This document shows positions 15,997 through 34,614 of a stretch of DNA of 36,175 bases, piece after piece; the first letter of the stretch is position 1, and every line of letters starts with the position of its first letter. The notes below the pieces were generated by a model that was not told the DNA's origin, did no database searches, and saw only the letters and a program-made list of their open reading frames with translations. The stretch is from Methanobacteriota archaeon (GTDB lineage Archaea > Thermoplasmatota > Poseidoniia > Poseidoniales > Poseidoniaceae): assembly GCA_002715725.1 (NCBI GenBank), contig PAZU01000028.1, positions 1 to 36,175 on the forward strand, written 5' to 3'. A program made the translations under genes and the position numbers.

Positions 15997-16428
15997 ATGG
16001 GCAGGTTGCTGGGGATATTTACCTCGAATGGTGGTGTCCCAAAACTTCCAGTTGATTCTGCACAAATAGACAACAATGGAATAGTTGGTGACGCTTGTAA
16101 CAGCAAAAAGCACCACGGCGGTCCAATGAAGGCAATTTGTATTTTAGAGAATGAACTATTGGTCAAGTTACAATCCGAAGGTCATCCAATCCAAGCAGGT
16201 ACAACCGGCGAAAACATGCTCGTTGAGGGTTACAATTTAGAGGTAGGGAAAGTGTTTGATGTTGGTGAGGTTCGACTTGAGGTTGTATCAGATGCCACAC
16301 CTTGTTGGAAAATAGCAGATTCATTCACTGAAGGAGATTACAGCAGAATGTCCCATCAGAAATATCCAGGGGAAACGAGATGGTATTGCAAGGTATTGGA
16401 AACCGGTAAAATCAGTATATCCGGTTGA
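15997..16428 (+). CDS. MOSC-domain protein
   Basis: MOSC domains are found in molybdenum-cofactor sulfurases and in YiiM/YuaD-type proteins that handle sulfur or N-hydroxylated compounds using the molybdenum cofactor. The 143-residue stand-alone domain shows GGVPKLPV, GIVGD, HHGGPMKAICILENE, GTTGENMLV and ATPCWKI. The cysteine in the last motif is the conserved MOSC cysteine. The C-terminal RWYCKVLETG is also typical. The exact substrate is unknown and no molybdopterin genes are adjacent. The gene lies 34 bases after EF-2 on the same strand, and its last 17 bases overlap the convergent IDI-GGPPS gene. Confidence 0.85.
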   Translation: MGRLLGIFTSNGGVPKLPVDSAQIDNNGIVGDACNSKKHHGGPMKAICILENELLVKLQSEGHPIQAGTTGENMLVEGYNLEVGKVFDVGEVRLEVVSDATPCWKIADSFTEGDYSRMSHQKYPGETRWYCKVLETGKISISG

Positions 16429-18142
16429 GTTGGTAATCTGTCAACTCTCTTAATGCCCTAAGTGCTGGATTATCAGAAATTCGATCTAGACAGTCGTGTG
16501 CTTTACGATGGTAAGATTCAGCCTTTACTTTTGCATATTCAATTGAGCCTAAATCATGCAATGCTTGGTGGCCTCTAGCAACTTGCTCCGCAGTAACATT
16601 CTCACCCTTTCCTAGAACTGCAAGCAAATCATCCTTTGACTGTGAAGGAGGTTGTCTCAGTGCGTGAATTACCATCAACGTTCGTTTTCCTTGAGCTACA
16701 TCACTTCCACTAGGTTTTCCTAAAGTATCTGAATCAGATAAAACATCGATTAAATCGTCCATCAACTGGAAACACAATCCTAGTGCAAGACCCCAGTCAT
16801 GCATACACTGAATCACATCTTCATCCGCACCTGCAAGGTGTGAACCGACTTCGGCACAGGTAAGGAACATTGCAGCAGTCTTACCATGAATCATCTCAAT
16901 GTACTCTTCTTCAGAAACGACTTCACGATTTTCAAATTCGATATCGAGTTGTTGTCCCTCGCTACACTTGCGGACCATTCTACCAATTCGCTTGACTAAG
17001 AATGGCAATAGTTCTGGCTCAATACCTTCTGCAACGGCCATTGCCTCGAATGCAATCGCTAGCATAGCATCCCCTGCATTAATCGCAGTTGGTAAATCAT
17101 AAGCAACATGCACTGCAGGTCGACCACGGCGAACATCATCATCATCCATAATGTCATCATGTACTAGTGTGAAATTGTGAATAATTTCAATCGCTGCTCC
17201 AACATCAAGTAAACCTGAATGAGTATCGCCCACTGCTTTAGCAACTAACCATGGTAATGTTGCTCTTAATCGCTTTCCGCCACCCTCTAAAAGATGCATC
17301 ATAGCGCCAGATAATCGAGTTAATTTGCTGTGGGTTAAAGCACGCTCGATTCGACTTTCGACCAATTCCTTGACTTCAGAAATGCTGGTTGATAAATCTC
17401 CACCAATTGCATTTGGCAACATATGTGAAACATCACCCATGTCATGAATCAAATCATCTGGCTTTACGCAACCAGGCCTCCACCAGTCATCATTCATTAT
17501 TCTAGCAGCAATACAGCGGAACCACGGAGCAATCACATTTTCAGGATCATCTGCAACTAACATTTCTTCCAAATCCTCTTGAGAAACCCATTTGATATCA
17601 CTAACTTCATTCGGATTCGGGTTTACATCAACATCGGTATGAATTACTAAGCAATGGTCTACCTCTCTCTCGATCCAATCTTCATCTTGACGTGCTTGAT
17701 ATCTCATTTTTGTTATAAATTCAAACTTCTCCAAGGGGACCTGTGAAGGATGAATTCCCAATTCCTGTTCCAACTTCCTAACAGCTGCTCTCTTTACCCC
17801 AAGGGCATCTTTCAATTCCATTTCTTCTTCTGAATGGAGTGGATGTGAACAGCAAGAATTGGCCCATACATTAGGGAATGTTATCTTATGAGATGCCCTT
17901 TTCTGAAGCAACAAACGACCAGTTGAATCGAAGAGCATGACGCTGAATGCTCTATGGATTTCACCATTACCATGGTGACTATCAAACTTAGAAATTGGGC
18001 CAACGACCTCGTCACTTTCCGTAACTTGTATCACGGCTTCAGCCATCAATGACTCTTGTACTGAATCAGAACCTGCCAGTGCTTCCGAGGCTTCAGCCTC
18101 GATTTGCATGGTCGGAACATCCTCAATGCCATAGCCTGACAT
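16412..18142 (-). CDS. Fused type I isopentenyl-diphosphate isomerase and geranylgeranyl diphosphate synthase
   Basis: One 576-residue chain carries two consecutive isoprenoid steps. Residues about 45-220 are a type I (Nudix) IPP isomerase: RAFSVMLFDSTGRLLLQKRA, NSCCSHP with the catalytic cysteine near 97-98, and EREVDH with the catalytic glutamate near 160. Residues about 250-576 are a trans-prenyltransferase: GGGKRLRATL, first aspartate-rich motif LVHDDIMDDDDVRRGRP (DDIMD at about 329-333), and second motif QLMDDLID (about 459-466). A phenylalanine five residues before the first motif fits archaeal GGPP synthases. The ATG at 18142 has GGTGAG just upstream; a TTG at 18157 is an alternative. 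It lies 35 bases downstream of the isopentenyl phosphate kinase gene in the same operon. Confidence 0.92.
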   Translation of the reverse strand: MSGYGIEDVPTMQIEAEASEALAGSDSVQESLMAEAVIQVTESDEVVGPISKFDSHHGNGEIHRAFSVMLFDSTGRLLLQKRASHKITFPNVWANSCCSHPLHSEEEMELKDALGVKRAAVRKLEQELGIHPSQVPLEKFEFITKMRYQARQDEDWIEREVDHCLVIHTDVDVNPNPNEVSDIKWVSQEDLEEMLVADDPENVIAPWFRCIAARIMNDDWWRPGCVKPDDLIHDMGDVSHMLPNAIGGDLSTSISEVKELVESRIERALTHSKLTRLSGAMMHLLEGGGKRLRATLPWLVAKAVGDTHSGLLDVGAAIEIIHNFTLVHDDIMDDDDVRRGRPAVHVAYDLPTAINAGDAMLAIAFEAMAVAEGIEPELLPFLVKRIGRMVRKCSEGQQLDIEFENREVVSEEEYIEMIHGKTAAMFLTCAEVGSHLAGADEDVIQCMHDWGLALGLCFQLMDDLIDVLSDSDTLGKPSGSDVAQGKRTLMVIHALRQPPSQSKDDLLAVLGKGENVTAEQVARGHQALHDLGSIEYAKVKAESYHRKAHDCLDRISDNPALRALRELTDYQLNRIY

Positions 18143-18177
18143 ACACTCACCGTACAACCGGTTTCGCGTCCACTACA

Positions 18178-18966
18178 TCAACAGTTCCCTAGAACTATTC
18201 TAGTTCCAATAACGGGAAAACCCTCAATTGCATCACTAACTCTTTGTGGAATCTCACCGTTGACTAAAATCACATCAACTCCTTTAGATGCAATCATCGC
18301 ACCCCTCGCAGCCTTCAATCCAATGCCTCCTGTGACATCTATGTCGACAGCATGCTCACCTTCAAATTCCATTTCGGGATGCCACACTTCGATTAGATCA
18401 TCTGGGCCTGCCTTACTCGGAGGCACACGTAGTATTCCATCAACTTCTCCAATGGCAAAAATAGCCCGTTCAACTCCAGACAGTTCAGTGGCATATCTAA
18501 GCATTAAATCATCTCCAGAAAGGATTCCGAAATCCTTCACATAATCATCAACAACATCACCATAAACCACTGTGACACCATCATGAATTGGTAGATTACC
18601 AGAAAAATTGGGGCCGGTACCTTTAGCCCATTTGTGAGGAGGGAATGATTTCACATCTAGGCCCTTTGCTTGCAAAGCAGTTACTACAATTTGGTTTAAT
18701 TCCAACATGTCATTTCGTACATCTTGAACTGCTTCATCTTGTTCGATTCCTTCAATTCGTCCATCTGCTAAGCGATATTTCTTGGCCTTCATGTGACCAA
18801 ATGACCCCGCACCGTGTACAATTACCAAATTTTTATTTGAGTTTTTACAAACCTCTGCAAGTGATTCAATCACTCCTTGATTGACAGTACACAACTTGTC
18901 TTTGTGGGTGATTAATCCTCCTCCCCACTTGATGACAACCGTGCCGCCCATGCATATGCCACACAT
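18178..18966 (-). CDS. ipk: Isopentenyl phosphate kinase
   Basis: This enzyme phosphorylates isopentenyl phosphate to IPP, the last step of the archaeal variant mevalonate pathways, and belongs to the amino-acid kinase fold. The 262-residue protein shows VVIKWGGGLITHK (ATP site), IVHGAGSFGH with the catalytic histidine (residue 58), SGDDLMLRYATEL, DVTGGIGLK and VDVILVNG. Family length is about 245-260. ATGs at 18966 and 18951 are both possible. The shorter form begins MGGTVVIK, and a weak TGTAAATC element about 28 bases before 18966 favours the longer one. The product feeds the IDI-GGPPS fusion encoded immediately downstream. Confidence 0.92.
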   Translation of the reverse strand: MCGICMGGTVVIKWGGGLITHKDKLCTVNQGVIESLAEVCKNSNKNLVIVHGAGSFGHMKAKKYRLADGRIEGIEQDEAVQDVRNDMLELNQIVVTALQAKGLDVKSFPPHKWAKGTGPNFSGNLPIHDGVTVVYGDVVDDYVKDFGILSGDDLMLRYATELSGVERAIFAIGEVDGILRVPPSKAGPDDLIEVWHPEMEFEGEHAVDIDVTGGIGLKAARGAMIASKGVDVILVNGEIPQRVSDAIEGFPVIGTRIVLGNC

Positions 18967-20151: not shown

Positions 20152-21291
20152 ATGCGAGCAGTAATTTCAGACTACTTGCGCACGCCTTTCCACAGAGCAC
20201 ACAAGGGCGACCTAGCGTCATTTAGGCCTGAAGACATGTTGGAAGCGACTGTTAGAAATATAATTGAAAGAAATAATATTGATGTGAATGACATTGAAGA
20301 CTTAATGTTAGGATGCGCATATCCAGAAGGCGTTCAAGGATTGAACCTTGGGAGAATCGCCACCTACCTACCTCAACTCCCCAACTCCATTCCTGGAATG
20401 ACAACAAATCGTTTGTGTGGCTCTTCAATGCAAGTTGCACATACTGCAGCAGGCTCGATAAAAATGGGCTCTGGTGAACTTTTCTTGACAGCTGGTGTTG
20501 AAACTATGTCTTTAGTGAAAAGGGGTGGATGGAATAGAGACCTACACCCTGGAATAGAATCAAAATTTCCGGACGCATATATCTCGATGGGTTTGACTGC
20601 AGAAAATCTTGCTAATGATTATTCAATATCTCGAACAGAACAAGAAGAATTTGCCCTTCATAGCCACAATAAGGCACTGAGTGCGCAAAGTAACGGGATG
20701 CTTACTAATGAAATCGTGGCAGTTAAATCTGAAGGAAAAGTTGTGGAAATTGATGGATGCATAAGAGAAACTTCTGTCGAAAAAATGTCTAAACTACCTC
20801 CAGCATTCATAGAAAATGGAACAGTTACAGCTGCAACATCCTCACCATTAACAGATGGTGCTGCTTGCAATCTAATTTGCTCGGAAAAGTATGCTCAAGA
20901 GAATAGTATTGCCAGCCTTGCCGAGATTGTCTCAACTGCAGTTGTTGGAGTTCCACCTCACATAATGGGAATTGGGCCAGTAGAATCTTCAAAGAAGGCC
21001 CTAGCCAGAGCTGGCATTTCAATGGATGACGTAGATGTGATTGAATTAAATGAAGCTTTTAGCGCTCAGTCAATCGCTGTATTAAGAGACTTAGATCTTG
21101 AATCTGATGATAAAAGACTCAATATTGATGGTGGAGCATTAGCAATCGGTCACCCATTAGGTGCAAGTGGTGCACGAATACTCGGCAAAGCCGCATCTTT
21201 ACTGAATAGAATTGATGGCGAATATGCGTTAGCATCAATGTGTATAGGCGGAGGAATGGGAATTGCTACAGTTTTGCGTAAATATGAATGA
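20152..21291 (+). CDS. Acetyl-CoA acyltransferase (thiolase)
   Basis: Thiolases cleave 3-ketoacyl-CoA with CoA in beta-oxidation, or condense two acetyl-CoA in biosynthesis. The 379-residue protein begins MRAVISDYLRTPF and has the acyl-accepting cysteine 89 in NRLCGSSMQ, IELNEAFSAQ, GGALAIGHPLGASGAR with histidine 334, and the second catalytic cysteine 364 in MCIGGGMG. This complete classical triad distinguishes it from the archaeal SCP2-type thiolases that lack it, so a degradative, bacterial-type FadA role is likely. A 3-hydroxyacyl-CoA dehydrogenase is encoded separately at 34668-35519. The ATG at 20152 matches the conserved N-terminus. Confidence 0.92.
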   Translation: MRAVISDYLRTPFHRAHKGDLASFRPEDMLEATVRNIIERNNIDVNDIEDLMLGCAYPEGVQGLNLGRIATYLPQLPNSIPGMTTNRLCGSSMQVAHTAAGSIKMGSGELFLTAGVETMSLVKRGGWNRDLHPGIESKFPDAYISMGLTAENLANDYSISRTEQEEFALHSHNKALSAQSNGMLTNEIVAVKSEGKVVEIDGCIRETSVEKMSKLPPAFIENGTVTAATSSPLTDGAACNLICSEKYAQENSIASLAEIVSTAVVGVPPHIMGIGPVESSKKALARAGISMDDVDVIELNEAFSAQSIAVLRDLDLESDDKRLNIDGGALAIGHPLGASGARILGKAASLLNRIDGEYALASMCIGGGMGIATVLRKYE

Positions 21292-21326: not shown

Positions 21327-22328
21327 ATGGGTATCCGAAAGGGGCGTAAAGAAGCGTTCGAAAATCTAAGCATTAGCGAAGAAGGAGACTGCCCTCGCTG
21401 TGGGGGTGAAAGCCAGCCATCTTCTCTACCGGGTTACCTAAGTTGTGTTAGATGCGGTTATGAATGGAAAGACCCAAACCATGTGGCACAAAAAAGAGGA
21501 CCACCAGAAACTTATCGCCGTGATGCAGAGTTGATCGAAGAGTTCAAACAAGAAATGCAAGCTGGTGATTTGAGCAACGTATTGGGTATTGAAAAGGGTC
21601 TTTCTGGCGAGCAAGAGGCTTCTTTGCAACGCTTGGAAGATAAGTGGATGAGTGGCATGAGTGGCCATTTCAATGCTGCTGCTGAAGAAAGAAAACCACT
21701 TATGATTTCATTTGATGATAATGACAATTTAGTCGACACTACAGTTGGAAGTATAACCATTGTAGCGAATGGATTCGATGGTGGTGAAGAAGTTCGATTA
21801 GAATATCCTGGCCTCGGCACCGAATTCTATGCTTATGATGAAGCAAGCGAAACTGGATGGCGTAGAGGAAGAACTGCTGAAGATACTGCACGTTCAATTA
21901 CAAATGTCATCAACAGATTTTCCAAACTCGTTTATGCCAACCAAGATGGAAGCATGATTTTGCTAGAATTACGTAGTGAAGAACTCAATCCTGATTCGCT
22001 GGTAATATTCGTTGATGACCCTGGCGGCACAGATATAGTGGCTGAAAAGTCTGGAGTATCTATGGATCCAAGAGATGTTCGAATGGTTGAAGATTACAAA
22101 GTAGTAGTTGAAATTTGTTTAGCAGATGGAATTATTTCACCTTCAGAAGACCAAATGCTTTGGGCAATGCGTCAACAACTAGGAATCGATGATTATCTGC
22201 ATGTTCAGATAGTCCAGCAAATTTTTGGTGACCACGCTCTCAAAGAATGCACAATATGTGGGAAGATGGCTGAACTTTATGCCGACTATGCAGCATGGTA
22301 CTGTCAATCATGTGAAAATTGGTGTTAG
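21327..22328 (+). CDS. Double zinc-ribbon protein with a TerB-like segment, unknown function
   Basis: The family of this 333-residue soluble protein is not recognised. It has a zinc ribbon at each end: cysteines 22, 25, 40 and 43 (CPRCG ... CVRCGYEW), and 308, 311, 326 and 329 (CTICG ... CQSCENWC). A helical linker (60-120) leads to a beta-rich middle (125-235). Residues about 253-300 (VVVEICLADGIISPSEDQML, then QQLGIDDYLHV) resemble a TerB/DjlA-type helical unit with its ADG-x-I-s-x-x-E signature. The MamK-like actin gene follows 97 bases downstream on the same strand, so the two may act together, but a separate promoter for the actin is possible. ATG 21327 lacks a clear ribosome-binding site. 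Confidence 0.75.
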   Translation: MGIRKGRKEAFENLSISEEGDCPRCGGESQPSSLPGYLSCVRCGYEWKDPNHVAQKRGPPETYRRDAELIEEFKQEMQAGDLSNVLGIEKGLSGEQEASLQRLEDKWMSGMSGHFNAAAEERKPLMISFDDNDNLVDTTVGSITIVANGFDGGEEVRLEYPGLGTEFYAYDEASETGWRRGRTAEDTARSITNVINRFSKLVYANQDGSMILLELRSEELNPDSLVIFVDDPGGTDIVAEKSGVSMDPRDVRMVEDYKVVVEICLADGIISPSEDQMLWAMRQQLGIDDYLHVQIVQQIFGDHALKECTICGKMAELYADYAAWYCQSCENWC

Positions 22329-22404
22329 TACAGCGAAATATAGATTATATTTTAGAAGTATCTGTAAAGCGTAGCATAGGCATTCTTCATAAGGTGAGAA
22401 CCAA

Positions 22405-22420
22405 TCGCCCAAATAGGCGA
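22405..22420. other. Short inverted repeat before the actin-like gene
   Basis: TCGCC-CAAATA-GGCGA is a perfect 5-base inverted repeat with a 6-base spacer, ending 5 bases before the ATG at 22426. It could be an operator or an mRNA hairpin covering the start. It could equally be chance. Confidence 0.3.
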
Positions 22421-22425
22421 GTATT

Positions 22426-23451
22426 ATGGCTGAAGAAGTACTATACATCGGAATTGACCTTGGAACCTTTCGCTCTGTTATGGTGTCCAGCGATAGTCAC
22501 GAAGAAGAAGAACTCACTGTTATTGGAACACCAAAAGACCCAATTGCAAGAAATTTCCTGAAAAGAGATGTCCTTTTTGGCAATGAAGCATTGAAGAACA
22601 GATTAGCATTGAATCTATTCCGTCCTCTTGAACTTGGTGTGATTAAGGATACACCTGAGGACCGAGAATTCATTGCACATTTCATTACACACCTGATTGG
22701 TTTGTCTGATCCTGAAGACTACGATAGAGTAGTTGCAGTTATCGGAGCTCCTGCTGAAGCAAGTCACGTCGACAAGACCTCGATCTTCGATGCTGCTGCA
22801 GGCTCTGTGAATGCTGCTATGATCATCTCCGAACCTTTCGCAGTTGCTTATGCACTAGACATGATTGAGCACACACTAGTAATCGACATTGGTGCAGGAA
22901 CTACTGACCTTTGCCGTGTATATGGTACAATCCCTGGACCAGGAGACCAGATGCACACAGGATATGCTGGTGACTATGTAGATAACCAAATCATTGTTGA
23001 AGTACAAAAGAAGTACAACGGTGCTCAAATCACCAAGGATATGGCTCGCAGATGGAAAGAGCAGTATTCCTTCGTATCAACTTCGACTCCAGATGACCCA
23101 ATCATGGTAGACTTCTCAATTGAAGGTAAAGCAATGACTCTTGACATCACTGATTGTGTACAATCAGCCTGTGAATCAATCGTTGACCCAATCGTTGAAA
23201 ATGTAAAGCAATTGATTGCAGGTTCAAACCCTGAATTCCATGATGAATTCCGCAGGAACATGGTTTTAGCAGGTGGAGGCTCTGCTATCAGAGGACTTGG
23301 AGCACTTATCGAGCGCCGTCTATCTGATATGGGCGAAGTCAACGTTCACGTTGTAGATGACCCAGTCAGATTAGGAGCAATGGGTGGCCTGAGGCTAGCT
23401 ATGGAAGTTCCAGAAGATATGTGGAAGAACTTGACTCTAGCATCTCGCTGA
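22426..23451 (+). CDS. Actin-like ATPase resembling MamK
   Basis: This 341-residue protein of the actin/MreB/Hsp70 superfamily carries all nucleotide-site motifs. Phosphate-1 is YIGIDLGTFRS (7-17), the catalytic glutamate lies in ISEPFAVAYAL (residue 136), phosphate-2 is DIGAGTTDL (154-162), and the adenosine motif is LAGGGSAIRGL (281-291). From memory the closest named family is MamK, the magnetosome actin. Shared segments include VIGTPKDPIA, FRPLELGVI, VAVIGAPAEAS, GTIPGPGDQ, and EQYSFV. Members polymerise into filaments. No other magnetosome gene is visible, so a cytoskeletal or positioning role is inferred, not magnetotaxis. No membrane segment. It follows the double zinc-ribbon gene by 97 bases, which include AT-rich TTATATTTTA (about 22345) and a small inverted repeat. 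Confidence 0.88.
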   Translation: MAEEVLYIGIDLGTFRSVMVSSDSHEEEELTVIGTPKDPIARNFLKRDVLFGNEALKNRLALNLFRPLELGVIKDTPEDREFIAHFITHLIGLSDPEDYDRVVAVIGAPAEASHVDKTSIFDAAAGSVNAAMIISEPFAVAYALDMIEHTLVIDIGAGTTDLCRVYGTIPGPGDQMHTGYAGDYVDNQIIVEVQKKYNGAQITKDMARRWKEQYSFVSTSTPDDPIMVDFSIEGKAMTLDITDCVQSACESIVDPIVENVKQLIAGSNPEFHDEFRRNMVLAGGGSAIRGLGALIERRLSDMGEVNVHVVDDPVRLGAMGGLRLAMEVPEDMWKNLTLASR

Positions 23452-23453
23452 GT

Positions 23454-24026
23454 TCACTCTTCTTCAGTTCCGCCTAGAACTAAAGGCGAATCACAGTGAG
23501 GGCACCTGTCCTCTCGAGACAGCAACATTGGATTGACTGCTAACACTGCTAAACATGTCGGGCAGGCTGCTAACATTTCGTTTGCAGGTAACTTATGTCC
23601 TTCATCATAGATTGAATATCCACTGTAGCCCATTTTGTAAACTGGATGGAAATGTATTCTAATGAATCTGATAGAGGAAAATATGGCATATCCGATGATT
23701 AATGAGAACACGAGGCTAGTTATAGAACCAGAAAGCATCTGTATAACATTGATTAATAAGATGAAACAGAAAATTGCGGTTAGTGCAGCAATAATCAATG
23801 GAACAAACCAATATGCCCATGCTGCTCTACTGCGATAACCTGCCCATACCGATAAGAAAAATAAACCTGGGACTAGTGCCAAATTTCCAAATATTTGGTA
23901 CACAAAAAATATCACTATCAATGAGTCAACCACGAAAACAAATGAAGTGCGACTATGAAGGGCGTCAATAGGATTAGAATGCTGAGGCCTCGAGCCTGCG
24001 AGAATCATCTCATCCGCATCTGACAT
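23454..24026 (-). CDS. Membrane protein with C-terminal zinc ribbon, unknown function
   Basis: The family of this 190-residue protein is not recognised. After a short polar N-terminus, hydrophobic segments follow at about residues 26-50, 53-62, 70-95 and 98-120, suggesting three or four membrane helices. A soluble tail then contains the zinc ribbon ACPTCLAV and RCPHCDSPLVLGG (four cysteines). The frame is open to 24059, but ATG 24026 (MSDADEMIL) is the more natural start. The 3' end lies 2 bases from the convergent actin-like gene, and the 5' end is divergent from coaBC. Confidence 0.7.
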   Translation of the reverse strand: MSDADEMILAGSRPQHSNPIDALHSRTSFVFVVDSLIVIFFVYQIFGNLALVPGLFFLSVWAGYRSRAAWAYWFVPLIIAALTAIFCFILLINVIQMLSGSITSLVFSLIIGYAIFSSIRFIRIHFHPVYKMGYSGYSIYDEGHKLPANEMLAACPTCLAVLAVNPMLLSREDRCPHCDSPLVLGGTEEE

Positions 24027-24130
24027 GATTACACGAGTGGATATTTGCAATTGAAACAACCGGTCATCTGTGAATATGAATGTGCATTTTCCAGCGAAGC
24101 CGTATTGAAGCAGGGACTTTTCCCCGTATC

Positions 24131-30741: not shown

Positions 30742-33700
30742 TCAATCATCCCAAACCTTGAATCCACCATCTACAGAATACCAATACTTTCCTTCTTTAT
30801 CTTGGTACCAGTTAACTCCATTTTCATCATTAGGTAACCATTCACCCTCTGGCAATTCTTCCCATGTTGAGACGAAGTCGAGTACCTTTCCAGACTCGAC
30901 TTGTTCCATTACTTCTCTGGCTGAGTCCTGAGATACTTGGTCAACATCTGGTTCAGCCTCTGGTTCCAGAGACGGGTGGACCGCTTTGTTAGGCCTGGAC
31001 TTCGTATTTGGCTTCTTACGAATCAATACTGCTATTGCACCAAACAATACCAATACTATTCCTGCACCAGCAATTCCTAAGATAACTGCAAGATTGGATT
31101 CTTCTTCTTCATCTTGAGCAGAATTCTGTTCTTCTTCATCTCCGACTGTCGGCAAACTAGACAAACAACCTTGTGTATCAGAATATAAGAATGCTGAGTA
31201 TTCATTAGGACATCTATCTGGCTGAGTCGCTCCTATCAAGAACTCACCGTATACTCTGGTATCGTTCCATTCAGGATTGTCCCAATTATCGCCAAATCCA
31301 TCATTATCAGTGTCATTCCATTGAGTTGAATCACCGTCATTGAAATCGTGATCATATGACCAACCGTCACCATCAAGGTCATAGCAACCGACTTGGTCAT
31401 AAATTGAAGTTCCTTTCTGAGTTGGACAGTCATCTCCTCCTTCAGCATCTGAATTGTCCCCATAGCCATCGCCATCAGTATCTACCCATTGATACGGATT
31501 ATTGTCATCCCAATCTAGGTCAGATGTTACTGAATCACCATCAGCATCAATCTCTGAAGGGGCACAGCCTACGAAAGGATTAGCAACAGTATTGTCATTA
31601 TCTAAGTAAAGTGTAGTATTAACTAGGGTTGATTGCAATAGTGGAGTATTTGGGCACTGGTCTATGTCATCGGTAAATGAATCATAATCGCCGTCTCTTT
31701 CAGAAGGACCACAACCGTCTGAATTAACCATGGAAATTTCTTCTAAAGGCGTTTCCACACACAAATCATAGTCGCCTGCGGTAGCTGTATCGCCAATGCC
31801 GTCTCCATCGTCATCCCTATATTGCTCGGGATTAGATGGTAAATCATCGATTGAGTCGGCCCATCCATCTCCATCTGAATCGATACATCCGAATAATCCC
31901 TCTTTATGTGAGGTGCCACTTACATTTACGCAATCATCGCCTTCAAGACCCAAATTATTGTCTCCAAATCCATCGCTGTCAGAGTCACTCCACTGAGTTT
32001 CCTCGAATGGGAAAACATCGATATTATCTCCAAAACCATCCAAATCTGAATCTTTCCACTCCGTTGGATCATCAGGGAAATCATCTCCCGAATCAGACCA
32101 ACCATCTCCATCCGAATCAATACAACCTAGCAAATCTTGAGTCGAATTACCAGTTTCGTTTACGCAATCGTCGGAATTATCTCCAAAACCATCCATATCA
32201 GTATCGTTCCATTCCGTATTATCACCAGGATGACTATCATCAGAATCTTGCCATCCATCTCCATCCGAATCTGGACATCCAATACTGCCCAATGTGGATG
32301 TACCTGCTACATCATCACAATCATCGATATCATTGGTATAACCGTCATTGTCATCATCAAGTTGATTTTCAGCACAGCCTTCTAAGTCAACTGACAAACC
32401 TAACGTAGTTTCTGGACACAAATCTTCACCGTCCCATACTCCATCAGAGTCTGCATCTGGCAGCAAATAGGACATGTCGACTCCTAGTCTAGCCCAAGAA
32501 GAATAAAGTCCCCACGCATCAAGTCCTACGAATCCCATTTGCTCCCACTTCAATTGACCTAAATCCGTCAACAGGAATTTCAAGAAATTAAGATTCTTAG
32601 GAATCTCGTCTACTGAAACAAACGCCCGCATATCTGTTTGAAGCGGCCATTCACCAGTGCGTGAAGCATTGATTGATGCATTTACAGCATAACCACCATC
32701 AGCTATTGCGTCACTAGCCCCGTGGGTGAAATTATCTACAATAGGTACAATGTAGACCCCATTGCCATTGTCTAATGAATAAACCATTTCAGTAAATCCA
32801 ATTGAACCTTCTCCCGCTGATGCTGAAACACCTTGTGTTACATCAGACCTAAATTCTCCTGCTATAGCACGGTATCGCGAAGAACTGGAGGAGTATATGG
32901 AATCGGTTTGGGCACAATTTGCACATAGGACCGTTTCGTGTAGAATAGTTGTATCTGACTTATTTTCCCAGCGATGAGACAACACAATCTCGGTATCTGG
33001 GCATGATGAATCAAGATCTATCCATTCAGGTATACCATTTCCATCATCATTTGGAACTACTGAATTCCAATTTAATGCAGGCATTCCACCTTCTGTAGTC
33101 AATGAATTCTTGGTAGAGCCAGACACAATCCATCTAACCTGTGCCATCGATAATCCACCAAGTGTTTGCATACAGGATTCAGTGTTACCGCCTGATTTAA
33201 CCATCAGAGCACCAGCAGTTCTACCATATGGTATTTCCAAAATCTGTCCTTCTGTATACTTGCAATCCCACAACCCAGTCTCGGAATAATTTGCAGCTTT
33301 ATCGGCATATTGTGGACTTACACCATTTGTACTCGAACCAATATAATGCTTTGAATCACATACATCTAAGGTAGATGTTACTCTATCATAATTCCAAACT
33401 CTGACCGATTCGTCAACTGTTGGGTAAGTTGACCTCCAAGGGCTCTCCATTAGCGAGGTGTAGTAAAGGCCATGCACACGTATGAATGCATCTGCAGCCA
33501 TGTGTAGTGAAACATAGCCTCTACGCCAACCGACAGCTAACTTGTCTCCATCTTCATGGAACTCAACAGAATATACTCCTCGATTCTGGCCATTGCTTCC
33601 AAAGCCTTCCATCTCACCAAGAGAAGTCCAGGTGTCTGTTTGATATGCGTACATAGAGGAAGATCTCCCTCGAGCTACCACCAATGTTCCCCCATCTGAA

Positions 33701-34614
33701 GAAAAATCGATATCGTAAACATCGGACCCAGCCGAAATTGTTGCAATAACGGTTTGATTTGAAAGATCAGTAATTTTGACAGAATTGTCGTTTGAACCTG
33801 TTGCAACATACCTGCCATCTGGGCTAACTTTCACAGTACGAATGTATTCGGTATGGCTAGTCATATTGAGGGCCATAGTCCCATTATTGGTCCAATAGCC
33901 ACGCAAATTGTTGTTAGTAGAGAAAAGTAACATGCGGTCATCTGGCGTGGTATCTATTCCACTAATCCAGCCAGGCAGTACTGAGTTGTTTCGAATTTCC
34001 GACCAATCTGTGGTGTTGTACCAAACTACCTTGACGTCCTGTCCTCCAGCAAAAATCATGCTACCGTCGTTAGACCATGCTACCTCGAAGACTCCACTAT
34101 TCGAGGAATTATTCCACAAATCTGCGATTAACGTGCCTGTAGTTGAATCAATAACTCGACAACCACCACCAGCGCTGACCGCCACAAGCATTGTTCCATC
34201 AGGAGAGACATCAATGTCGTAAATGTCGCCGGGCATGTCATACATTTGGGCAATATGATTTCCTAATTCGTCGAATGAATGTACACTGTTGTCTTTACCT
34301 CCTGCGTAGAAGATTGAACCATTAGTAGCCCAAGCTAATCCATATATTTCGTCACCGACTCCACTGAATCCATAATCTAAATTTTCTCTAATGGAATCTC
34401 CCCAATTATGAGTTATTGCTTGTTCAAAATCTGCGAGGCCATCACCATCCGAATCTGGACAACCTAGTCCTAAAGTAGAATTTGCAGAACCTGCTGCAAA
34501 AGGGCAAATATCGACATCATCGTTGATACCATCACCATCGCCATCAGATGCTGATGCATAGGGTGTAAGAGTGACGCCAATCATCAGGATAGACAAAAGA
34601 ATAGCCTTACGCAT
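30742..34614 (-). CDS. Giant secreted/membrane-anchored protein with beta-propeller and TSP3-type calcium repeats
   Basis: This 1290-residue protein starts with a Sec signal peptide (residues 1-22, cleavage near ASA). Two aspartate-rich repeats follow at 24-64. Residues about 88-373 are seven WD40/quinoprotein-like blades (units such as EYIRTVKVSPDGRYVATGSN), enough for a complete seven-bladed propeller. A cysteine-containing region of unknown type spans about 375-715. About fourteen thrombospondin type-3-like repeats (DSDGDGWxDxxDD, DxDxDGFGDNxDDC) at about 720-1108 probably bind calcium. A membrane helix (about 1171-1197) is followed by basic residues and a roughly 90-residue cytoplasmic tail ending in a tryptophan-rich WW-like motif. 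Surface adhesion or polymer binding is inferred. ATG 34614 fits the signal peptide. Confidence 0.9.
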   Translation of the reverse strand: MRKAILLSILMIGVTLTPYASASDGDGDGINDDVDICPFAAGSANSTLGLGCPDSDGDGLADFEQAITHNWGDSIRENLDYGFSGVGDEIYGLAWATNGSIFYAGGKDNSVHSFDELGNHIAQMYDMPGDIYDIDVSPDGTMLVAVSAGGGCRVIDSTTGTLIADLWNNSSNSGVFEVAWSNDGSMIFAGGQDVKVVWYNTTDWSEIRNNSVLPGWISGIDTTPDDRMLLFSTNNNLRGYWTNNGTMALNMTSHTEYIRTVKVSPDGRYVATGSNDNSVKITDLSNQTVIATISAGSDVYDIDFSSDGGTLVVARGRSSSMYAYQTDTWTSLGEMEGFGSNGQNRGVYSVEFHEDGDKLAVGWRRGYVSLHMAADAFIRVHGLYYTSLMESPWRSTYPTVDESVRVWNYDRVTSTLDVCDSKHYIGSSTNGVSPQYADKAANYSETGLWDCKYTEGQILEIPYGRTAGALMVKSGGNTESCMQTLGGLSMAQVRWIVSGSTKNSLTTEGGMPALNWNSVVPNDDGNGIPEWIDLDSSCPDTEIVLSHRWENKSDTTILHETVLCANCAQTDSIYSSSSSRYRAIAGEFRSDVTQGVSASAGEGSIGFTEMVYSLDNGNGVYIVPIVDNFTHGASDAIADGGYAVNASINASRTGEWPLQTDMRAFVSVDEIPKNLNFLKFLLTDLGQLKWEQMGFVGLDAWGLYSSWARLGVDMSYLLPDADSDGVWDGEDLCPETTLGLSVDLEGCAENQLDDDNDGYTNDIDDCDDVAGTSTLGSIGCPDSDGDGWQDSDDSHPGDNTEWNDTDMDGFGDNSDDCVNETGNSTQDLLGCIDSDGDGWSDSGDDFPDDPTEWKDSDLDGFGDNIDVFPFEETQWSDSDSDGFGDNNLGLEGDDCVNVSGTSHKEGLFGCIDSDGDGWADSIDDLPSNPEQYRDDDGDGIGDTATAGDYDLCVETPLEEISMVNSDGCGPSERDGDYDSFTDDIDQCPNTPLLQSTLVNTTLYLDNDNTVANPFVGCAPSEIDADGDSVTSDLDWDDNNPYQWVDTDGDGYGDNSDAEGGDDCPTQKGTSIYDQVGCYDLDGDGWSYDHDFNDGDSTQWNDTDNDGFGDNWDNPEWNDTRVYGEFLIGATQPDRCPNEYSAFLYSDTQGCLSSLPTVGDEEEQNSAQDEEEESNLAVILGIAGAGIVLVLFGAIAVLIRKKPNTKSRPNKAVHPSLEPEAEPDVDQVSQDSAREVMEQVESGKVLDFVSTWEELPEGEWLPNDENGVNWYQDKEGKYWYSVDGGFKVWDD

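Follow-up and report, generated by a model that had tools for sequence, protein, structure and literature searches.

Poseidoniales (Marine Group II) are very abundant, uncultured ocean archaea, and a contig of this order encodes a protein that an initial annotation, made from the letters alone, had described as a MamK-like actin. This locus raises two questions: to which branch of the actin superfamily does the protein belong, and what could such a protein do in a marine archaeon? The window, that is, the whole stretch of 36,175 nucleotides that was analysed, belongs to a genome assembly that totals 1.94 Mb, comprises 57 contigs and has an estimated completeness of 76%.

Actin A is related to MamK

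The gene, here called actin A, and its conserved positions are the following:

22426-23451, plus strand: actin A, MamK-clade actin-like ATPase, 341 amino acids (open reading frame, HMM, tree, AlphaFold2, Foldseek)
22450-22467, plus strand: GIDLGT, residues 9-14 of actin A (alignment)
22831-22833, plus strand: E136 of actin A, aligned with MamK E143 (invariant in A and B rows)
22885-22908, plus strand: DIGAGTTD, residues 154-161 of actin A, with D154 aligned with MamK D161 (alignment)
23272-23280, plus strand: GGG, residues 283-285 of actin A (alignment)

The actin nucleotide motifs recognised by the initial annotation are confirmed by the alignment: we take GIDLGT to be the phosphate-1 type motif, DIGAGTTD to be the phosphate-2 type motif and GGG to be part of the adenosine-binding type motif. 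E136 and D154 are invariant in all 25 rows compared (12 of actin A and 13 of its paralogue actin B, see below); the corresponding E143 and D161 of MamK are presumably its ATPase/catalytic residues.

The NCBIfam MamK model NF040964 spans residues 6-337 of actin A (2.2e-107, 359 bits), and the claimed similarity to MamK over the whole length, above that to MreB, is thus borne out: the two NCBIfam MreB models score 93.8 and 83.3 bits. The curated cut-off of NF040964 is 400 bits, and the highest score seen in Poseidoniales is 376.3 bits; because its 359 bits fall below this cut-off, actin A is a MamK-clade actin and not MamK proper. It also stays below the cut-offs of the models for BeeR (213.7 versus 530 bits), MreB (NF010539, 93.8 versus 293 bits) and salactin (NF053533, 61.9 versus 400 bits). 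The Pfam models are more permissive: MreB_Mbl (92.9 bits, cut-off 27), Salactin (54.3 bits, cut-off 27.1) and Actin (32.4 bits) exceed their cut-offs and Volactin (27.8 bits) does not. Crenactin and salactin were compared with actin A through HMM scores only. A sequence search of the PDB puts MamK first (5ljw, 5.1e-74), ahead of BeeR (8r2n, 7.1e-43) and MreB (2e-15). Actin A of the window is 38.6% identical to MamK, with similarity over the full length, 32.8% to BeeR and about 25% to MreB; the means of the 12 A rows are 38.4%, 33.8% and 25.3%, respectively.

The structure prediction proposed by the initial annotation yielded an actin fold (AlphaFold2, 33 aligned sequences, mean pLDDT 88.8, pTM 0.86). 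Foldseek ranks three MamK chains first (5ljv with TM 0.88/0.92 and rmsd 2.3), BeeR fourth, then MamK 5jyg and MreB, followed by eukaryotic actins. The protein begins four residues ahead of the first core strand and has no N-terminal extension of the BeeR type. Judged by HMM score, tree (see below) and predicted fold, actin A falls within the actin superfamily on the side of MamK.

Both nearest relatives are filament-forming: MamK polymerises according to the titles of 5ljv and 5jyg, and so does BeeR (PMC11929497). By analogy, A and B are therefore likely to form filaments. One residue could be read differently, namely as a sign that actin A is a non-polymerising actin-fold ATPase whose role has shifted towards regulation or enzymatic activity: the window's actin A has D where MamK has the A278D site. 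According to the title of 5ljw, A278D is a non-polymerising mutation of MamK; we located it as the position where two MamK chains of the PDB search differ. However, the MreB rows likewise have D in this column, and full-length similarity to MamK as well as the best superposition on both filament and monomer structures of MamK speak against such a drift, to which we give hardly any credence.

In four pairs of actin A genes, dN is 0.015-0.053 and dS 0.98-3.2 (saturated in three of the four); given this low dN against a high dS, selection on actin A is strongly purifying. An artefact or contamination was ruled out because the pair of actin A and the gene upstream of it is kept across 12 genera and the flanks are conserved in the compared loci. 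An origin from phages or plasmids was also rejected: tblastn matches are all at or below 30.2% identity among the best 20 of 53 plasmid and 10 of 16 phage records.

A second paralogue and the actin tree

The initial annotation was correct about the actin gene, but not in treating it as a lone actin: the same genome encodes a second MamK-clade paralogue on another contig, actin B (G000:C12:2706-3698), which is 46% identical to A. About 1 Mb separates the two genes in genome G032, which consists of one contig. The reading frame of actin A in this genome (G032:C1, L153 9891-10603) is broken near residue 153, perhaps through a sequencing error; a truncation by deletion was ruled out.

The actin tree has 33 rows, including five of MreB and one of bacterial MamK; crenactin, Ta0583 and salactin are absent from it. 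Clades are recovered for A (100/99), B (80/77) and MreB (100/100), and the phylogeny, which the initial annotation had suggested as a check against a place within MreB, separates actin A from the five MreB rows with support of 100/100. The A clade stands beside, not inside, a group of bacterial MamK and one archaeal protein from genome G222 (92/84, with a single bacterial MamK row and long branches); the G222 protein itself joins bacterial MamK with 100/98. Topologies uniting A with MamK but not G222 (p-AU 0.002) or A, B and G222 without MamK (p-AU 0.0135) are rejected, while A and B as a single clade are compatible with the data (p-AU 0.163). We are unsure about the deep joins, since the branches of BeeR and MamK are long and only one bacterial MamK is included.

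The G222 protein (L112; phylum Thermoplasmatota as binned) resembles actin A in lying on an archaeal contig and is 43% identical to it. It differs in exceeding the MamK cut-off (435.5 bits) and in grouping with bacterial MamK, and blastp at 1e-6 found neither of the two candidate partners described below beside it. Its contig neighbours are archaeal: Rpb2, a Kae1-like TsaD, diphthamide synthase and DUF531. The gene is at L142 10128-11225 on the plus strand (G222:C140), equivalent to L112 1405-2502; its genome measures 5 Mb and is 7% contaminated.

Relation to magnetosomes and to known actins

The statement of the initial annotation that the window has no magnetosome-specific gene fits our Pfam scans, which found none among the open reading frames covered, a set that does not include every small one. 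The magnetochrome domain PF18509 matched none of 165 Poseidoniales genomes, and the control was likewise unmatched. With MamK (NF040964; 5ljw, 5ljv, 5jyg), actin A shares the best HMM, the best sequence match, the best fold and the aligned catalytic residues; it differs in its score below the cut-off, in its 38.6% identity, in having its own partner genes, in being archaeal and in that none of the scanned open reading frames of the window is magnetosomal. Foreign MamKs have been expressed in a mamK deletion strain of Magnetospirillum gryphiswaldense (PMC10653835). BeeR of Verrucomicrobiota (8r2n) is similar in that its nearest relative is MamK and in that it occurs outside magnetotactic bacteria, with unknown function, but it has a disordered N-terminal extension of 30-50 residues and forms a three-stranded tube (PMC11929497). 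Salactin of Haloarchaea is likewise archaeal, and its authors give MamK as the subfamily nearest to it; in the available part of PMC10746226 it is described in Methanotecta and not in Poseidoniales, and its model gives actin A 61.9 of the required 400 bits. MreB has the same fold and its Pfam model MreB_Mbl matches, but it forms a separate clade at about 25% identity.

An older tree, as far as the accessible sections of PMC2651865 describe it, includes some archaeal sequences on its MamK and ParM branches. Among openly licensed PMC texts, supplements excluded, we found no paper on a Poseidoniales actin or MamK: the words 'MamK', 'cytoskelet' and 'actin' each occur zero times in the MGII genome paper PMC6461757, 'MamK', 'cytoskelet' and 'actin-like' each zero times in the part available of the MGII genome paper PMC6336850, and the single 'actin' in the available text of PMC9258230 is within a reference title. 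Archaeal actins near MamK are thus already known; new are the two paralogues with their own partners.

Distribution and loss within Poseidoniales

We surveyed 165 genomes of the order (164 with a completeness of at least 80% plus the window's own) and found an actin match at 1e-10 in 107 of them: in 96/96 genomes of family f1 and in 11/69 of family f2, the family sizes being read from the order of the genome handles, with 38 genomes without match unlisted. f1 would correspond to Poseidoniaceae and f2 to Thalassarchaeaceae. The f2 genomes with actin belong to the genera g12 (1/1), g14 (2/2), g19 (5/7) and g20 (3/3). All 27 genomes of the window's own genus matched, at least two of them (G006 and G007) to the paralogue only. 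The question of the initial annotation, whether the gene is universal in related genomes, thus has a divided answer: it is general in f1, whereas the crown genera of f2 lack it. Across a sample of the phylum, 96 of 391 genomes match the MamK model at 1e-20 and 94 of these are from the order; the other two are G222 (435.5 bits, over the cut-off) and G325 (6e-22).

Two genomes of g19 have no actin match (G157 and G160). CoaBC, a flanking gene of the A locus, was found in neither, and the gene next to the B locus is absent from G160 and, in G157, lies 84 bases from a contig end; the misses are therefore probably assembly gaps, and a second loss in g19 is unsupported.

A species tree was built from eight concatenated proteins (25 rows, eight of which are less than half filled, without genome G112; SH-aLRT support only). 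In this tree the 14 actin-negative rows form one clade (100) within f2, while g14, and then g19/g20, branch earlier. It replaced a tree based on EF2 only. There, the actin-bearing g14 was nested among the actin-less genera (86/85) and three changes were required, but the G112 row was a wrong open reading frame with a very long branch. As the actin-less f2 genera form one clade, A and B look to have been present in the ancestor of the order and to have been lost once. The distance of about 1 Mb between A and B in G032 means that this shared loss was not one deletion of a linked segment. The single loss in f2 offers a natural comparison between relatives with and without the system.

The listed actin-less genomes are about 1.1-1.7 Mb in size and the actin-bearing ones 1.5-2.3 Mb. 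According to the available part of PMC6336850, the average MGIIa genome exceeds that of MGIIb by about 400 kb, and the two most basal MGIIb clades have genomes of MGIIa size. The co-loss of A, B and their partners could be mere streamlining, and we give it limited weight because it is a single event on a branch where the genome shrank, presumably with the loss of many other genes.

The gene upstream of actin A

A protein of 333 amino acids is encoded directly upstream of actin A, with the following features:

21327-22328, plus strand: 333-amino-acid soluble protein, candidate adaptor of actin A (gene adjacency, joint absence; zinc-ribbon-like ends, beta-alpha-beta module, TerB-like helices)
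21390-21455, plus strand: CxxC...CxxC set, residues 22-43 (missing in members of genus g2)
21741-22049, plus strand: beta-alpha-beta module, residues 139-241 (AlphaFold2 model)
22086-22226, plus strand: TerB-like helical part, residues 254-300 (weak Pfam TerB/ENT matches below cut-off; AlphaFold2 helices)
22248-22313, plus strand: CxxC...CxxC set, residues 308-329 (invariant cysteines)
22329-22425, plus strand: spacer of 97 bases between this gene and actin A (RNA fold)

No Pfam model matches the protein above its cut-off; among 48 members of its family, matches below the cut-off with E up to 1 include TerB in 22 and ENT in 37. Foldseek with the AlphaFold2 model returned nothing at E 0.001 or better, the top match being flagellin at 1.6e-3. 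The RNA fold of the spacer is unremarkable (z -1.78).

The gene lies immediately upstream of actin A in all 77 testable loci (tblastn, which detected actin A in each of 80 loci, three of them too near a contig end). In one locus (L149) the block of thiolase, 333-amino-acid gene and actin is inverted between conserved flanks. The protein is present in 102 of the 165 genomes, 91 of f1 and 11 of f2, the latter exclusively from g12, g14, g19 and g20. Five f1 genomes lack it (G007, G058, G085, G094 and G100), and their actin matches are at the level of B only. Part of the agreement between actin A and this protein across genomes is trivial, as one missing contig takes both genes, and this may apply to the five f1 cases. 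Of 13 stretches taken from actin-less genomes of seven genera, none contains the 333-amino-acid gene or actin A; 11 retain thiolase and CoaBC on either side of the gap, L186 is cut off too soon to show both, and L187 has undergone rearrangement. In the same three pairs, dN of the 333-amino-acid protein is 0.14-0.17 versus 0.05 for actin A; such faster evolution would suit an adaptor.

Two neighbours were rejected as partners of actin A. The thiolase (20152-21291) stays in 12 of the 13 actin-less stretches and adjoins the pair, preceding the 333-amino-acid gene, in only 9 of 67 loci. A 201-amino-acid protein (23454-24059, minus strand), which has no Pfam match, hydrophobic stretches and a CxxC tail, has a relative that stays in 6 of the 13.

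The actin B locus

We fetched 22 B loci and found actin B in 19. A subtilase gene lies immediately upstream of B in 18 of these 19, at distances between an overlap of 17 bases and a gap of 122 (the stretch of L234 is too short). A hydrophobic segment close to the C-terminus, present in all five subtilases examined, suggests that this protease is membrane-anchored. Downstream, a gene for a coiled-coil protein, here called the coil, follows B within 99 bases in 16 of 19 loci; in the others the distance is 526 (L223), 1464 (L227) and 3137 bp (L234). In three loci of genus g2, the coil is present without an adjoining B.

The coil has matches in 115 of the 165 genomes. The 101 strong ones (E 1e-29 or better) are all from f1, g12, g14, g19 and g20; the 14 weak ones (2e-12 to 3e-6) are from the actin-less genera g15, g16, g21 and g22 and extend over about the first 190 residues only. 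Five loci with weak matches, from g16 and g21 and picked for these matches, were inspected. They are at the syntenic B locus, where neither actin B nor the subtilase was matched, and encode homologues of the N-terminal core of the coil of just 152-164 amino acids (profile E 1.6e-21 to 6.6e-14; 0 of 307 other open reading frames matched the core profile at E up to 10):

L199 9193-9687, plus strand: short coil homologue, B locus of an actin-less genome (profile search)
L200 9083-9577, plus strand: as above
L201 9364-9822, plus strand: as above
L202 9125-9592, plus strand: as above
L203 3931-4392, plus strand: as above

Among 22 coil sequences, the mean pairwise identity is 0.81 for residues 236-312 versus 0.52 for residues 30-170. 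The block 236-312 is near-invariant and arginine-rich and lies in the part that is missing from the short coils. The best-conserved part being gone in these five loci that lack actin B, this block, at about 236-312, may be an actin-binding segment; it is the strongest hint of our study, a correlation on one branch.

Possible functions

We propose that A and B, bound to ATP, would form cytoplasmic filaments of the MamK type that position or segregate a cargo and do not set the shape of the cell. Actin A would be a filament-forming ATPase that binds a dedicated soluble adaptor, the 333-amino-acid zinc-ribbon/TerB-like protein, and actin B would bind the coil, whose block at about 236-312 accompanies the presence of actin B. 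The adaptors may couple the filaments to membrane-bound surface machinery, such as the subtilase, or to the nucleoid; this subtilase, anchored in the membrane and encoded beside actin B, is one cargo candidate, and the two actins may cooperate. We assign a probability of about 0.5 to this reading, two MamK-clade positioning filaments, A with the 333-amino-acid protein and B with the coil. Points against it are the coils of g2, L223, L227 and L234 that do not adjoin B, the below-cut-off domain matches of the 333-amino-acid protein and the D of actin A at the A278D position. If it is true, a conserved MamK-clade pair with partners means that positioning filaments of the MamK type reach well beyond magnetosomes. 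Two ancient actins with partner genes hint at an unstudied internal skeleton, and the two actins, their two candidate adaptors and the conserved block of the coil are concrete targets for work in laboratory hosts.

The initial annotation had offered a compartment, the chromosome or the cell shape as what the filament might organise, and our data narrow this choice a little, at the expense of shape. Archaeal and bacterial actin homologues often affect shape, and MamK and BeeR are followed by MreB both in HMM scores and in Foldseek; an MreB-like cytoskeleton of cell shape or envelope nevertheless seems improbable. Actin A is split from the MreB rows in the tree, and the accessible sections of PMC6864105 describe the vast majority of detected cells as coccoid and smaller than 1 µm, with MGIIa, the actin-bearing family, and MGIIb thought to be alike. 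Because both are coccoid and the MGIIb cells would be actin-less, control of shape is disfavoured.

Movement of DNA is a further function known from this superfamily, as plasmid actins segregate DNA. In a ParM-like segregation of chromosome or plasmid, the zinc-ribbon protein or the coil would be the DNA adaptor, and judged by their sequences both zinc ribbons and an arginine-rich coil could bind nucleic acid. However, both actins are missing from viable relatives, so that any such role is dispensable, and matches to plasmids do not exceed 30.2% identity among the best 20 of 53; we therefore regard segregation as quite unlikely.

The filaments might instead place the archaellum, its cap or an adhesion machinery. 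The archaellin domain PF01917 is found in 113 of the 165 genomes and in 91 of 96 in f1, and a 167-amino-acid homologue of the C-terminal part of the 333-amino-acid protein is encoded near archaellins, ahead of a 1670-amino-acid Ig-like protein (L144 14881-15384, minus strand, G000:C3). Over the same 165 genomes, however, the mismatches run in both directions: actin occurs without an archaellin match in g20 (3/3) and g12 (1/1), and archaellin occurs without actin in six genomes of g17 and eight of g22. A strict partnership was therefore rejected, and positioning of this machinery has in our view a small chance of being the function; a looser tie through the homologue in the archaellum locus may exist.

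The two positioning filaments with their adaptors can be extended to a more specific picture, which we consider rather unlikely. Ancestral Poseidoniales would have had a system of two actins and two adaptors, A with the zinc-ribbon/TerB protein and B with the coil, beside a membrane-anchored exoprotease, that organised a membrane-associated patch for degradation or adhesion or another compartment; the coil would have arisen by adding an ultra-conserved actin-binding part to a shorter, self-sufficient protein, and all of this would have been discarded as the crown Thalassarchaeaceae streamlined. Such a system would be an organising skeleton of the MamK type with a non-magnetosome cargo in Archaea.

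Other genes of the window

Several further genes of the window deserve mention. A protein of 1290 amino acids (30742-34614, minus strand) is a WD40 beta-propeller protein (Pfam WD40, 65 bits, and many propeller models) and is large for an archaeon. A fused frame of 581 amino acids (16412-18157, minus strand) combines a NUDIX type-1 isopentenyl-diphosphate isomerase (TIGR02150, above cut-off) with a polyprenyl synthetase; the gene after it (18178-18966) belongs to the amino-acid-kinase family and is perhaps an isopentenyl phosphate kinase. Between 3593 and 7649 on the plus strand, consecutive genes encode proteasome alpha, SBDS, Rrp4, two RNase PH-type subunits and L37ae, an arrangement that resembles the known exosome superoperon.
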